Shown in pieces: positions 6,440 through 32,939 of a DNA stretch of 33,401 bases. Position 1 is the first letter of the stretch; the number at the start of each line of letters is the position of its first letter. The notes beneath the pieces were generated by a model. It did no database searches. It was not told the DNA's origin and saw only the letters and a program-made list of their open reading frames with translations. The position numbers and the translations under genes are program-made. This DNA is from a virus: the IMG/VR virus record IMGVR_UViG_3300032286_000463, positions 1-33,401 of that record, one strand, 5' to 3'.

Positions 6440-6511
6440 TGGGCATTAACTCAGTTGGCAGAGTGTTCGACTGTTAATCGTTGATTCCAGATTCGAGTTC
6501 TGGTAGCCCAG
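6440..6511 (+). tRNA. tRNA-Asn (GTT)
   Basis: A cloverleaf can be drawn: acceptor TGGGCAT with TAGCCCA (two mismatches at the inner end), D arm ACTC/GAGT, anticodon loop CTGTTAA with GTT, and T arm CCAGA-TTCGAGT-TCTGG. The lower anticodon stem also has two mismatches, so this is a somewhat degenerate phage tRNA. Confidence 0.75.
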
Positions 6512-10222: not shown

Positions 10223-10639
10223 ATGGTAATCTATACAGACCCATTCGCAGCACTTAGTCAGGAATTTGATAAGATGCTTGCAACACCAGGAGTACACAGA
10301 GTTGGCTCCACATACCCACCATATAACGTAATTCACTCAAAGGACAAGAATGAATGGTATCTTGAATTCGCTCTTGCAGGATTTGAGAAGGATGACGTAA
10401 CCATCACAACAGACAAGAACATTCTGACTATTGCTGGTGAAACAAAAGAAGATAAAGACCTTCCAGAAGATATCCGTTATGTTTATAAGGGTATTGCTGG
10501 TCGTAAATTCACTCGTTCTTTTACTCTGCCAGAATATGCTGAAGTCGCTAACGCTGAACTAAAGCATGGCATTCTAACTATTGATTTAGTTATTGATATT
10601 CCAGAGGAAAAGAAACCTAAAACAATTACTATTAAGTAA
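10223..10639 (+). CDS. hsp20: Small heat shock protein (Hsp20/IbpA-like)
   Basis: A 138-residue holdase chaperone. The alpha-crystallin domain spans roughly 28-125: YPPYNVIHSKDKNEWYLEFA, LAGFEKDDVTITTDKNILTI, a GIAGRKFTRSFTLPEYAEV strand and the closing GILTIDLVI. A short KKPKTITIK tail carries an I-x-I-type motif used in oligomer assembly. Phages, notably marine T4-like ones, sometimes carry hsp20, probably to protect proteins during infection. It has its own promoter and strong ribosome binding site and stands alone, suggesting separate control. Confidence 0.93.
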   Translation: MVIYTDPFAALSQEFDKMLATPGVHRVGSTYPPYNVIHSKDKNEWYLEFALAGFEKDDVTITTDKNILTIAGETKEDKDLPEDIRYVYKGIAGRKFTRSFTLPEYAEVANAELKHGILTIDLVIDIPEEKKPKTITIK

Positions 10640-10684
10640 ATCGGATGTCCTGGGTATGACGATAAACTGCCTATCTAACAGATG

Positions 10685-29255: not shown

Positions 29256-29290
29256 CATTAGGCATGTCTAATAAAATTATTATGTAAAGT

Positions 29291-29335
29291 TGTCGGCACA
29301 AAACCAGGGCAGTCAGATTGCTCCAACCACCCTGG
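29291..29335 (-). terminator. Terminator followed by TCGGCA motif
   Basis: CCAGGG (29304-29309) / CCCTGG (29330-29335), then TTTTGTGCCGACA on the minus strand. Inside the loop, GGGCA/TGCTC gives a second small hairpin similar to the conserved 3' hairpins. Confidence 0.72.
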
Positions 29336-30751: not shown

Positions 30752-30819
30752 CGAAATAAATGATTAACTAGTTAGAAATTGCCGACCCAAATTCCCCACT
30801 TTTGTCAAGTAGGAAATGG

Positions 30820-30842
30820 TGAGCAGTTTGAAATCTTGCTCA
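30820..30842 (-). repeat. Conserved 3' hairpin, copy 1
   Basis: TGAGCA / TGCTCA with an 11-base loop, 12 bases after the stop of the DUF932 gene. Same family as 32056-32078 and 32599-32621, with paired stem substitutions. Confidence 0.78.
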
Positions 30843-30853
30843 GGATTGTTTTG

Positions 30854-31867
30854 CTATACGGAAGCCAAGACCAAGTTCATTAGTCTATTCTTCTCAGCGT
30901 TGATTACAGGGTCAAAGCCAGAAGCAGAAGCGTAAATACTTTCGTTGTTAGTTCCACGAGCATTACGATACCAGTCTAGGCGTTCTGTTAGAGCATTCAA
31001 AGCACCCCAAGCAGTTCCAGAGATAGTGTTATTGTAATCGCCAACATAGATAGATTGAATTAGGTCAATCTTGTCTGTCCACTTTTTCATAGAACCCTTG
31101 CTGTCCTTAGTTGGCATAGGGTAAGCCTTGAGAACAATCTCATCAAACTTAGCCTGAGTGATTTCTTTGCTAATCATTTCCTTAGCAAGTAAATCAAACT
31201 CGTCTAGGTAGTGATTAGCCAAGCCCAACGCTTCACGAGCAACAGCAATTTTACCTTCTGCTGTTTGTGTGTGTCTAATCTTGAATGACTGCTTCAAACC
31301 CTTTTTACCTTTTAGAGAAGATAGAGCAAGGTTTAGAGTGTTAGCACATACAACACGAACAGGAGTGATAGAAGCCTGAATTGCGATAGAACCATCGTGA
31401 GATGTGTTTAGCAATAGATAAGACTTGACAACATCAGACACGCCATTAGGGTCAAGAACAGTCTCACGCTCTAAAGCGATTGAACCAAAAACTTGTCTGC
31501 CACCCTTGATTGAACCAGCAGTTTCCCAACGCCCACCACCATCAAGCAGATTATCGCCAAACGAGAACAAGTCTTCATTCTGTAATGGAACATAACGCTC
31601 ACCAACGACACCAAGAATGTCTGTCTGCTCTGCGTTGAATGGATTGGTGCGAGATACGAACGAGTAGTTTCTGTCGCTAGTGAAACCAGCAGGAACAGCA
31701 ACATCTTCAAGTCTGACATTCCAGTTGTCTAGGCTTGCGAGTGATAGCATTTCTGCGGTAGATACTTCTTCCTGAAACACAGTTCCAAGATTGTGCCAAG
31801 CAGGTTGGCGGAGTGAAGCAAAACTAGCCTGACCAGTTGCTTCGTTGATTTCTAATTCGTGAGCCAT
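30854..31867 (-). CDS. DUF932 phage/plasmid-like protein
   Basis: A 337-residue protein starting MAHELEINEATGQASF at 31867, with AAAGGTG nine bases upstream; in-frame starts further up lie in the leader. Family blocks include RQPAWHNLG, FVSRTNPFNAEQTDILGVVGERYVPLQN, a GGRQVFGSIAL strand, ITPVRVVCANTLNLAL and the C-terminal WGALNALTERLDWYRNARG. DUF932 proteins are frequent in phages and plasmids; their role is unknown, and links to DNA metabolism rest on genome context. It has a strong promoter (31908-31936) and a 3' hairpin. Confidence 0.9.
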   Translation of the reverse strand: MAHELEINEATGQASFASLRQPAWHNLGTVFQEEVSTAEMLSLASLDNWNVRLEDVAVPAGFTSDRNYSFVSRTNPFNAEQTDILGVVGERYVPLQNEDLFSFGDNLLDGGGRWETAGSIKGGRQVFGSIALERETVLDPNGVSDVVKSYLLLNTSHDGSIAIQASITPVRVVCANTLNLALSSLKGKKGLKQSFKIRHTQTAEGKIAVAREALGLANHYLDEFDLLAKEMISKEITQAKFDEIVLKAYPMPTKDSKGSMKKWTDKIDLIQSIYVGDYNNTISGTAWGALNALTERLDWYRNARGTNNESIYASASGFDPVINAEKNRLMNLVLASV

Positions 31868-31907
31868 AGGGACTACACCTTTCATTGTTGGATTTGTTTG
31901 ATACTCA

Positions 31908-31936
31908 ATTGTCTCACGATTTGGGGGAAATGTCAA
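31908..31936 (-). promoter_or_regulatory. Promoter of the DUF932 gene
   Basis: Minus strand TTGACA (31936-31931), 17 bases, GACAAT (31913-31908). Confidence 0.72.
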
Positions 31937-31948
31937 GTGTTTCGTAAA
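31924..31948 (+). repeat. Bipartite GGGGAAA-N10-TTCGTAAA motif, copy 6
   Basis: GGGGAAA 31924-31930 and TTCGTAAA 31941-31948. The N10 is exactly the -35 region of the DUF932 promoter. Confidence 0.75.
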
Positions 31949-31984
31949 CTAATTTTACATTAGTTATCATTTCGTTACTTTTGC

Positions 31985-32054
31985 GGTCGGCACAAAAAAT
32001 CCCCCTGCTAATTTTACCTATCTAATTAGGATAGTCAATCTTCACAGGGGGATT
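31985..32054 (-). terminator. Strong terminator followed by TCGGCA motif
   Basis: AATCCCCCTG (31998-32007) / CAGGGGGATT (32045-32054), 10-bp stem, loop containing CTATC/GATAG, then six T and GTGCCGACC on the minus strand. Confidence 0.88.
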
Positions 32055-32055
32055 G

Positions 32056-32078
32056 TAAGCAGTTTAGACACTTGCTTA
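32056..32078 (-). repeat. Conserved 3' hairpin, copy 2
   Basis: TAAGCA / TGCTTA with loop GTTTAGACACT (plus strand), 12 bases after the stop of the 32090 gene. Confidence 0.8.
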
Positions 32079-32089
32079 GGTGTTTACTT

Positions 32090-32527
32090 TTACAGCAAAT
32101 CCAAAACGGAGTTGTATGTGCTGGAAGTAATGGTTTCTTGGTCAGTTAGTTTTAGAAGTTTTAGGGTCTTCTCCAACTGCTCTTTGTTTTGTCTGTTCTG
32201 CCAAGTGTCAGGGTCGCTAGGCTTCTCTGGCTTTGTGCCAATCTTAGCAACGATTTCCTTACCAACTGCGATAGAAACAGAACCACGATAATCGCTGTTG
32301 ATAGAGATGTTGTCTTCCTGATTGCCATAGTCGCTATAATCAACAATAGACTTTTTGTTTTTGCTAACCAAGTCAATTAGGTCTGCTGTGAAAGAAACAA
32401 TCTGCTTCTTGTATGCTGATAGCAACTTTGGATACTCTACTTCTGCCTTAGCAATTTCTGCTAACTTGGTTTCAACCATTTCAACTACTACTGATGTTGG
32501 GATTTTTACGGATACGGAACGAGCCAT
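32090..32527 (-). CDS. Conserved actinophage hypothetical protein
   Basis: A 145-residue protein starting MARSVSVKIPTSVVVEMVET. An N-terminal strand-helix is followed by a YPKLLSAYKKQIVSFTADLI helix, a Gly/Ser strand region (RGSVSIAVGKEIVAKIG) and PDTWQNRQNKEQLEKTLKLL. This opening and overall layout are familiar from conserved early genes of actinophages; the function is unknown. Leader AGAAAGTAG. Confidence 0.72.
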   Translation of the reverse strand: MARSVSVKIPTSVVVEMVETKLAEIAKAEVEYPKLLSAYKKQIVSFTADLIDLVSKNKKSIVDYSDYGNQEDNISINSDYRGSVSIAVGKEIVAKIGTKPEKPSDPDTWQNRQNKEQLEKTLKLLKLTDQETITSSTYNSVLDLL

Positions 32528-32569
32528 AATGTTTTGCTACTTTCTATTTGTGGGTTTATGTATAGTTCA

Positions 32570-32598
32570 ATTATACAGGATTTAGGGAAATTTGTAAA
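32570..32598 (-). promoter_or_regulatory. Promoter of the 32090 gene
   Basis: Minus strand TTTACA (32598-32593), 17 bases, TG-TATAAT (-10 at 32575-32570). It abuts the hairpin at 32599-32621. The spacer carries a degenerate TTTCCC half motif. Confidence 0.72.
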
Positions 32599-32621
32599 TG
32601 GGCAGTTTAGACATTTGCCCA
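32599..32621 (-). repeat. Conserved 3' hairpin, copy 3
   Basis: TGGGCA / TGCCCA with loop GTTTAGACATT (plus strand), 23 bases after the stop of the 32644 gene. It may also terminate that message. Confidence 0.8.
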
Positions 32622-32643
32622 GATGTTATAGTTCTGTTATGAA

Positions 32644-32802
32644 CTACTTGGCAGTTGTCCAGCGTGACTGACCAGCAACATCAAGTTTGATACGGAACGA
32701 GCCGTTTGCGTTCTTGATTACTTCCTGAACAGTGCCAACAACGCCAGACTTCTGGGTTGCGAACTGTGAGCCAACAGTTGGAACGGAAAATGTGTTTCCC
32801 AT
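32644..32802 (-). CDS. Small conserved protein (SH3-like)
   Basis: A 52-residue protein starting MGNTFSVPTVGSQFATQKSG. Strand-rich, ending SFRIKLDVAGQSRWTTAK. Likely a tiny beta-barrel. Leader AGAAAGAAGC; a promoter with a 5' hairpin lies upstream. Function unknown. Its codon use includes more C and G than most of its neighbours. Confidence 0.65.
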   Translation of the reverse strand: MGNTFSVPTVGSQFATQKSGVVGTVQEVIKNANGSFRIKLDVAGQSRWTTAK

Positions 32803-32927: not shown

Positions 32928-32939
32928 GGTCGGCAAAAA
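32928..32939 (-). other. GGTCGGCAAAAA post-gene motif
   Basis: Fourth same-orientation copy of the GGTCGGCA(C)AAAA element (others at 26941, 29291, 31985), just after the stop of the 32947 gene. Confidence 0.6.

Follow-up and report, generated by a model that had tools for sequence, protein, structure and literature searches.

Hairpins and neighbouring features in the window

The window, the whole 33,401-nt stretch of viral DNA analysed here, carries three minus-strand genes that are each followed by a small hairpin. The hairpins lie at 30820-30842, 32056-32078 and 32599-32621, where the original prediction had placed them, and ORF coordinates put their stems 11, 11 and 22 nt past the stop codons. 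The loop at 30820 is one base off the form said to be common to all three, GTTTRRAMAYT. Chance alone yields many perfect 6-bp stems with 11-nt loops in a window this rich in AT, which holds 23 of them, and therefore bare hairpins mean little. The sequence GCAGTTTRRAMAYTTGC, allowing up to two mismatches, matches three times in the window against 0.14 expected, and none of 100 shuffles reaches three. Conservation of the loop comes from the pairing of one half with the 5' flank, a point that the original prediction missed; this pairing and the chance frequency of such hairpins led us to reject a view of the hairpins alone.

A covariance model of flank plus hairpin, together called the knot below, finds exactly four copies in the window, the next match (E 0.52) being noise. 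Copy 1 (30820..30847, minus strand) follows a DUF932 gene (ORF 30854-31936) with E 6.4e-10, a match by construction, as its 28-mer is one row of the training alignment. Copy 2 (32056..32083, minus strand; E 2.1e-7) has its hairpin stem, S2, 11 nt past the stop of a 145-aa gene at 32090-32527, and in copy 3 (32599..32626, minus strand; E 4.5e-4) S2 begins 22 nt past the stop of a 52-aa gene at 32644-32802. Copy 4 lies far away on the plus strand (10646..10673; E 3.4e-6), with S2 11 nt past the stop of a gene at 10223-10639 that encodes Hsp20 (PHROG 432, E 2e-34). A different fourth element, proposed within the terminator loop at 29304-29335, is not a copy and does not appear among the 15 matches of the model up to E 10.

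Several minus-strand features adjoin these copies, the hairpins and stem among them being read from the sequence. A small hairpin, TAGTTC-ATAACA-GAACTA (32629..32646), includes the stop codon that copy 3 follows; in several relatives too, where the knot stands farther from the stop, a small hairpin often covers the stop codon itself. A sigma-70-like promoter, TTTACA-17-TATAAT (32570..32598), agrees with the consensus at 11 of 12 positions and begins immediately after copy 3 ends. One nucleotide after copy 2 begins a long terminator-like stem, AATCCCCCTG...CAGGGGGATT, followed by T6 (31998..32054), which our short-loop terminator scan did not report. Downstream of copy 1 lies the hairpin CCTACTT-GACA-AAAGTGGGG (30794..30813); an apical CTTGACA(A)AG or CTTGACAG is common to it and to several terminator-like hairpins elsewhere (L019, L022, L026, L031, L047). 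A GTCGGC / GCCGACC box recurs near terminators in the window (31980-31990, 30780-30790, 32930-32935 and 29290-29297) and in relatives; the minus strand has, after the box, a stretch resembling TAACGAAA..GATAAC and a sigma-70-like promoter, and the box may be a phage regulatory site. For the tRNAs of the window, Rfam gives three (6440, 6611, 6830) and ARAGORN only two, the discrepancy lying at 6440-6511.

Pseudoknot architecture and covariation

We are nearly certain that each site is a compact H-type pseudoknot, of which the hairpin is only half. Its 28 nt comprise a first stem S1 of 4-5 bp, in which the bases just ahead of S2 are paired with the opening half of the former loop, a loop L1 that is a single C, the 6-bp S2, a 1-nt L2 and an L3 of the form NNAAAC. 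In copy 1 the RNA reads, on the minus strand, AATC C TGAGCA A GATT TCAAAC TGCTCA: the flank strand F occupies 30847-30844, the L1 C 30843, S2 30842-30837/30825-30820, L2 30836, the partner strand F' 30835-30832 and L3 30831-30826. Among relatives flank and loop change together (ACAC/GTGT, AATC/GATT, AGAC/GTCT, CAAC/GTTG, ACAT/ATGT, CGTG/CACG and others). In 189 unique hairpins, collected without reference to the flank, at least three of the four flank-loop positions pair in 183; with the loops redistributed at random over the flanks, 76.7 would be expected. In a scan of loop geometries the setting L1 = 1, L2 = 1, L3 = 6 stands out with 297 matches, the other 53 settings giving 108-213; within it, L3 ending in AAAC forms an outlier class, and L1 is C in 108 of 108. 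A second class, with L3 ending in GAAA, has 36 matches, and by eye one such loop lies inside a tRNA.

Both stems covary. Our cleanest set, the copies behind DUF932 genes, is mostly protein-fetched (two rows, L090 and L152, come from pattern-fetched loci) and yields 35 distinct rows from the 47 copies whose loop has 11 nt (the cluster numbers 48), each of which had passed a finder that demanded the C, AAAC, at least three consecutive S1 pairs and at least five of six S2 pairs. In these rows all four S1 pairs have changed on both sides, with 99.3% of cells paired; S2 is 94.3% paired, and of its six pairs two have changed on both sides, two on one side and two are invariant. The covariation score is 0.558, compared with 0.181 after shuffling (0/500 as high) and at most 0.119 for slid partners. 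In the larger set of 541 unique copies with flanks, flank and loop pair in 332 of 333, a value biased upward by the pattern-fetched loci that are mixed there with protein-fetched ones: the patterns fix part of the loop and, in the IMG/VR and GTDB sets of at least 120 and of 96 stretches described below, also the last two paired flank bases. The consensus retains, beyond pairing, the invariant C, TNRGYA and AAAC, and holds no UUCG.

Which strand carries the structure can be read from the mispairs. Among 338 copies picked blind to wobbles, the cells that are not Watson-Crick pairs comprise 164 G-U, 43 A-C and 133 others, and the excess of G-U over A-C therefore places the structure in gene-sense RNA, that is, on the minus strand for copies 1-3. 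The flank-loop pairing, the covariation, this G-U bias and the stop-codon spacing given below lend strong support to the initial proposal that selection maintains an RNA structure behind these stop codons.

Placement behind stop codons and distribution

We find that the position of the knot is tied to the upstream stop codon and not to downstream sequence. An ORF of at least 35 codons ends within 70 nt upstream of 461 of the 541 copies, and from its stop to S2 the distance is 10-11 nt in 153 of the 461, the mode, and below 9 nt in only eight. This spacing has a sharp lower edge, with the distance to the next start being broad; a sizeable tail of copies stands 16-70 nt past the stop, even within single gene families. 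By a crude ORF rule for gene calls, 16 of a first set of 277 copies fall in a same-strand ORF, 61 in an opposite-strand ORF and 200 between genes. The genes upstream fall into 47 clusters. An apparent scarcity of TGA stops (1/183) was dropped when 17 of 242 close stops in a wider set proved to be TGA.

What comes after the knot varies. A tRNA begins 3-10 nt behind 25 of the 277 copies, exactly 3 nt behind in 15 of these; elsewhere there is a ribosome-binding site with ATG, a GC-rich hairpin (by eye) or, at copy 3, a promoter. A T-run lies directly behind the knot, within 12 nt, in 59 of 541 copies, compared with 4-12 in later windows, and about one in ten copies looks as if it also serves as an intrinsic terminator. 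A crude scan for U-tract terminators within 100 nt found them behind 24 of 274 knots, fewer than at random positions (13.9%).

The DUF932 loci add that the knot can be exchanged. It is present at 64 of 81 such loci, and at all of the other 17 a strong hairpin occupies the same place, with -24.5 to -32.5 kcal/mol over the first 64 nt; several of these replacements are terminator-like. In cultured relatives with DUF932 genes (Streptomyces, Rhodococcus and Arthrobacter, including four whole actinophage genomes) no knot was found, the best match having E 0.37 in one genome.

Beyond the window the knot turns up hundreds of times, in phages and mobile elements unrelated to one another, so that the absence of further copies, which might have refuted the original prediction, is plainly not the case. 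Of 30 related viral contigs, 26 carry a strict core pattern, and none of the 30 has a match to its reversed control. In cultured roseophages the knot stands once per genome, behind the class II ribonucleotide reductase gene and mostly before glutaredoxin; carriers are Roseobacter SIO1, in which the next annotated feature is PhoH, Lentibacter ICBM1, CRP-6, CRP-13 and, by blast plus model, Celeribacter P12053L. The model also matches Paracoccus ParKuw1 (E 6e-6), a Christensenellales phage (E 3e-8), Vibrio D456 (E 2e-5) and, less strongly, Sinorhizobium ort11 (E 0.003), and in the last three the annotated surroundings are not all of one layout. One variant of the pattern occurs in at least 120 stretches of IMG/VR and in 96 stretches of GTDB genomes; in the GTDB set 91 of 101 matches have at least three S1 pairs, two of them supplied by the pattern itself, and at least five S2 pairs; another search pattern gave no match in GTDB, and a blast query with another knot variant gave none in phages and only weak ones in plasmids.

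Among bacterial loci, four from Lactobacillaceae (L301, L310, L311, L351) have the knot 9-11 nt past a gene for a minor head protein. The next gene, checked in two of the four (L301 and L310), is a head scaffolding gene in both, as it is in L331; neither ROOL nor GOLLD was found beside the Lactobacillaceae copies. Of 20 neighbour proteins scanned at genome loci, nine match phage families and 11 do not. In three loci of Streptococcus or Enterococcus (L297, L302, L350) the knot is followed by a similar, untranslated-looking stretch of about 270 nt, perhaps a conjugative element's structured leader.

A CRISPR array provides a different kind of record. In Ignavibacteria Ch128a (loci L368 and L398; G031:C1, about 1029-1056 kb) the core pattern occurs five times, all in the spacers of one array and all five in one orientation, with no match elsewhere in the genome. 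The repeat of the array has 139 exact copies in the genome, and the array adjoins Cas1, Cas2, Card1-type nucleases, Csm4 and Cas10, which marks it as type III-A. Of the four knot spacers seen in full, two stop 1 nt past S2 and another stops at CTTTTTT. If the ATTGAGAC end of the repeat is the crRNA 5' tag, the crRNAs would be complementary to knot RNA, and elements that attack this host would then be transcribing the knot in the sense deduced above. Many other spacers of the array look like hairpins or terminators, and the spacers fold better than mononucleotide shuffles (-4.1 versus -2.9 kcal/mol). An RT-Cas1 as the source of spacers was rejected: the genome has no RVT_1 match.

Possible functions and comparison with known RNAs

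What might a structure so placed do? The structure, its strand, its locking to the stop codon and its exchange with strong hairpins have direct support. Since the knot swaps with plain hairpins at one site and is indifferent to what lies downstream, it most simply protects the message that ends there. We therefore consider the best explanation, and a fairly probable one, to be that the knot is a cis-acting pseudoknot in the mRNA of the upstream gene that would act as a roadblock to exoribonucleases. Standing as near to the stop codon as a terminating ribosome permits, it would physically block these enzymes as REP hairpins do, and the upstream message would keep an intact 3' end whether that end were made by termination, by RNase P cutting at a following tRNA or by an endonuclease cut in the next cistron. 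Where a T-run comes immediately behind, some copies might double as the terminator hairpin, and an intergenic knot could in addition guard the 5' end of a downstream message after processing. That very different hosts and phages carry the knot favours a mechanism without a specific partner, and an L1 and an L2 of 1 nt each would leave little room for a ligand pocket. Protein binding, processing and antitermination had been offered side by side as roles in the original prediction, with no choice made among them; the sequence evidence favours a nuclease roadblock or 3'-end element over antitermination, and it is from such evidence that we infer both nuclease blocking and stabilisation of mRNA.

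Some observations sit uneasily with the roadblock. The invariant C, TNRGYA and AAAC exceed what a bare roadblock needs, and tertiary contacts could explain these extra bases. Copy 3 abuts a promoter, with no terminator in between. In the Lactobacillaceae prophages where the knot precedes a scaffold gene, protecting or regulating the downstream message is equally plausible. REP hairpins are described as exoribonuclease barriers (PMC12306157), but reports exist that REPs no more than 15 nt from a stop codon stall ribosomes and lower expression (PMC12306157, PMC5009743), an opposite effect that counts against the roadblock reading.

As an alternative, and as has been proposed for stop-proximal REPs, the knot might touch a ribosome whose A site holds the stop codon, slowing termination or provoking mRNA cleavage/tmRNA, and so tune down the upstream gene. 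The modal 10-11 nt with its sharp lower edge places such structures where they encounter a ribosome positioned at the stop. We regard this as unlikely, though it is the alternative that survives best: it does not suit the tail at 16-70 nt, nor the 17 DUF932 loci where strong, partly terminator-like hairpins fill the position of the knot, and a lytic phage would presumably gain little from damping its RNR or Hsp20.

A transcription element, either a put-like antiterminator or a pause or termination signal acting on RNA polymerase, seems to us improbable. Copies do often stand upstream of terminators, as copy 2 does and as in the region before scaffold genes, and T-runs directly follow some, but the knot is locked to stop codons instead of promoters or terminators, a tRNA or ribosome-binding site follows many copies with no terminator present, the crude scan finds U-tract terminators less often than at random positions, and roseophage genomes have only one knot each.

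We give little credit to the idea that the knot, like the gene 32 or coat-protein operators, is bound by an RNA-binding protein of phage or host that would put a set of genes under common control. The invariant C, T..A and AAAC beyond pairing would suit such a site, and the T-even gene 32 pseudoknot binds gp32 (PMC3014915). Against it, the carriers share no evident gene, the upstream genes are as diverse as their 47 clusters, and orthologous sites swap the knot for plain hairpins.

Two further readings are very improbable. Recoding by readthrough or frameshifting at the stop codon draws on the 5-6 nt between stop and S1, a spacing similar to that of recoding pseudoknots, but we rejected it, as no open frame past the stop is conserved (median extensions of 8, 7 and 6 codons in the three frames, 183 cases) and the downstream contexts are unrelated. 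A frameshift fusion of RNR with glutaredoxin in roseophages was likewise rejected, the annotated frame relation varying between phages. A DNA-level element such as a cruciform, recombination or packaging site would account for a short inverted repeat with several copies per genome, but hardly for the pairing of flank with loop on one strand, which makes up half of the structure, or for the G-U bias, the gene-sense orientation behind stop codons and the single orientation of the CRISPR copies.

To return to the roadblock, we put forward tentatively, and with less confidence than the roadblock itself, a wider proposal: that one small RNA family, in phages, prophages and mobile elements of many bacterial phyla, may be a self-contained RNase roadblock placed by the ribosome at the stop codon, and so common in foreign transcripts that a host with type III, RNA-targeting CRISPR collected several spacers against it. 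The knot would then offer a possible reason for the repeated targeting of one short motif by a single array. A strongly covarying 28-nt element is present in roseophages sequenced long ago, such as SIO1, and in prophages of lactic acid bacteria; it lends itself to testing how phages set the stability of individual genes inside long transcripts, and could serve as a portable mRNA-stabilising part and as a signature for annotating mobile-element transcripts.

The knot is apparently uncatalogued and without an Rfam entry. Rfam 15 (4227 models, gathering score) placed no family on the knots of the scanned stretches, reporting only tRNA and tmRNA away from them; scanning three short stretches at permissive settings turned up no convincing match, and text searches of openly licensed literature listed no description of the element. 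The antiterminator RNA canT, of the put/canT type that suppresses downstream termination in cis, is described without the word pseudoknot in the accessible text of PMC11658703. The STAXI motif resembles the knot as a pseudoknot near mobile-element genes, but it comes in two or three tandem repeats with frequent UUCG loops (PMC2864571). The knot is mostly single, with 28 pairs within 150 nt among 741 copies and no UUCG in its consensus, and so lacks the tandem repeats that define STAXI. ToxI-type RNA antitoxins of type III toxin-antitoxin systems share an H-type pseudoknot unit of about 30 nt, whereas the knot forms no tandem array and follows many gene families. The pseudoknot of T2/T4 gene 32 mRNA, another compact phage H-type structure with two coaxial stems, is very close in geometry, with a 1-nt L1 and a long S2. 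It lies, however, 67 nt upstream of the gene 32 start codon and binds gp32 (PMC3014915), in the 5' leader of a single-stranded DNA-binding protein gene, whereas the knot takes its position from the stop codon upstream, and the genes that it follows belong to many families. With the REP hairpins of E. coli the knot shares an extragenic position close behind a stop codon, REPs being intercistronic or 3'-UTR structures that often stand just there (PMC12306157). REPs, however, are plain palindromes with many copies per bacterial chromosome, whereas the knot is a 28-nt pseudoknot with an invariant C and AAAC, present in few copies per element in phages, prophage-like loci and mobile elements.
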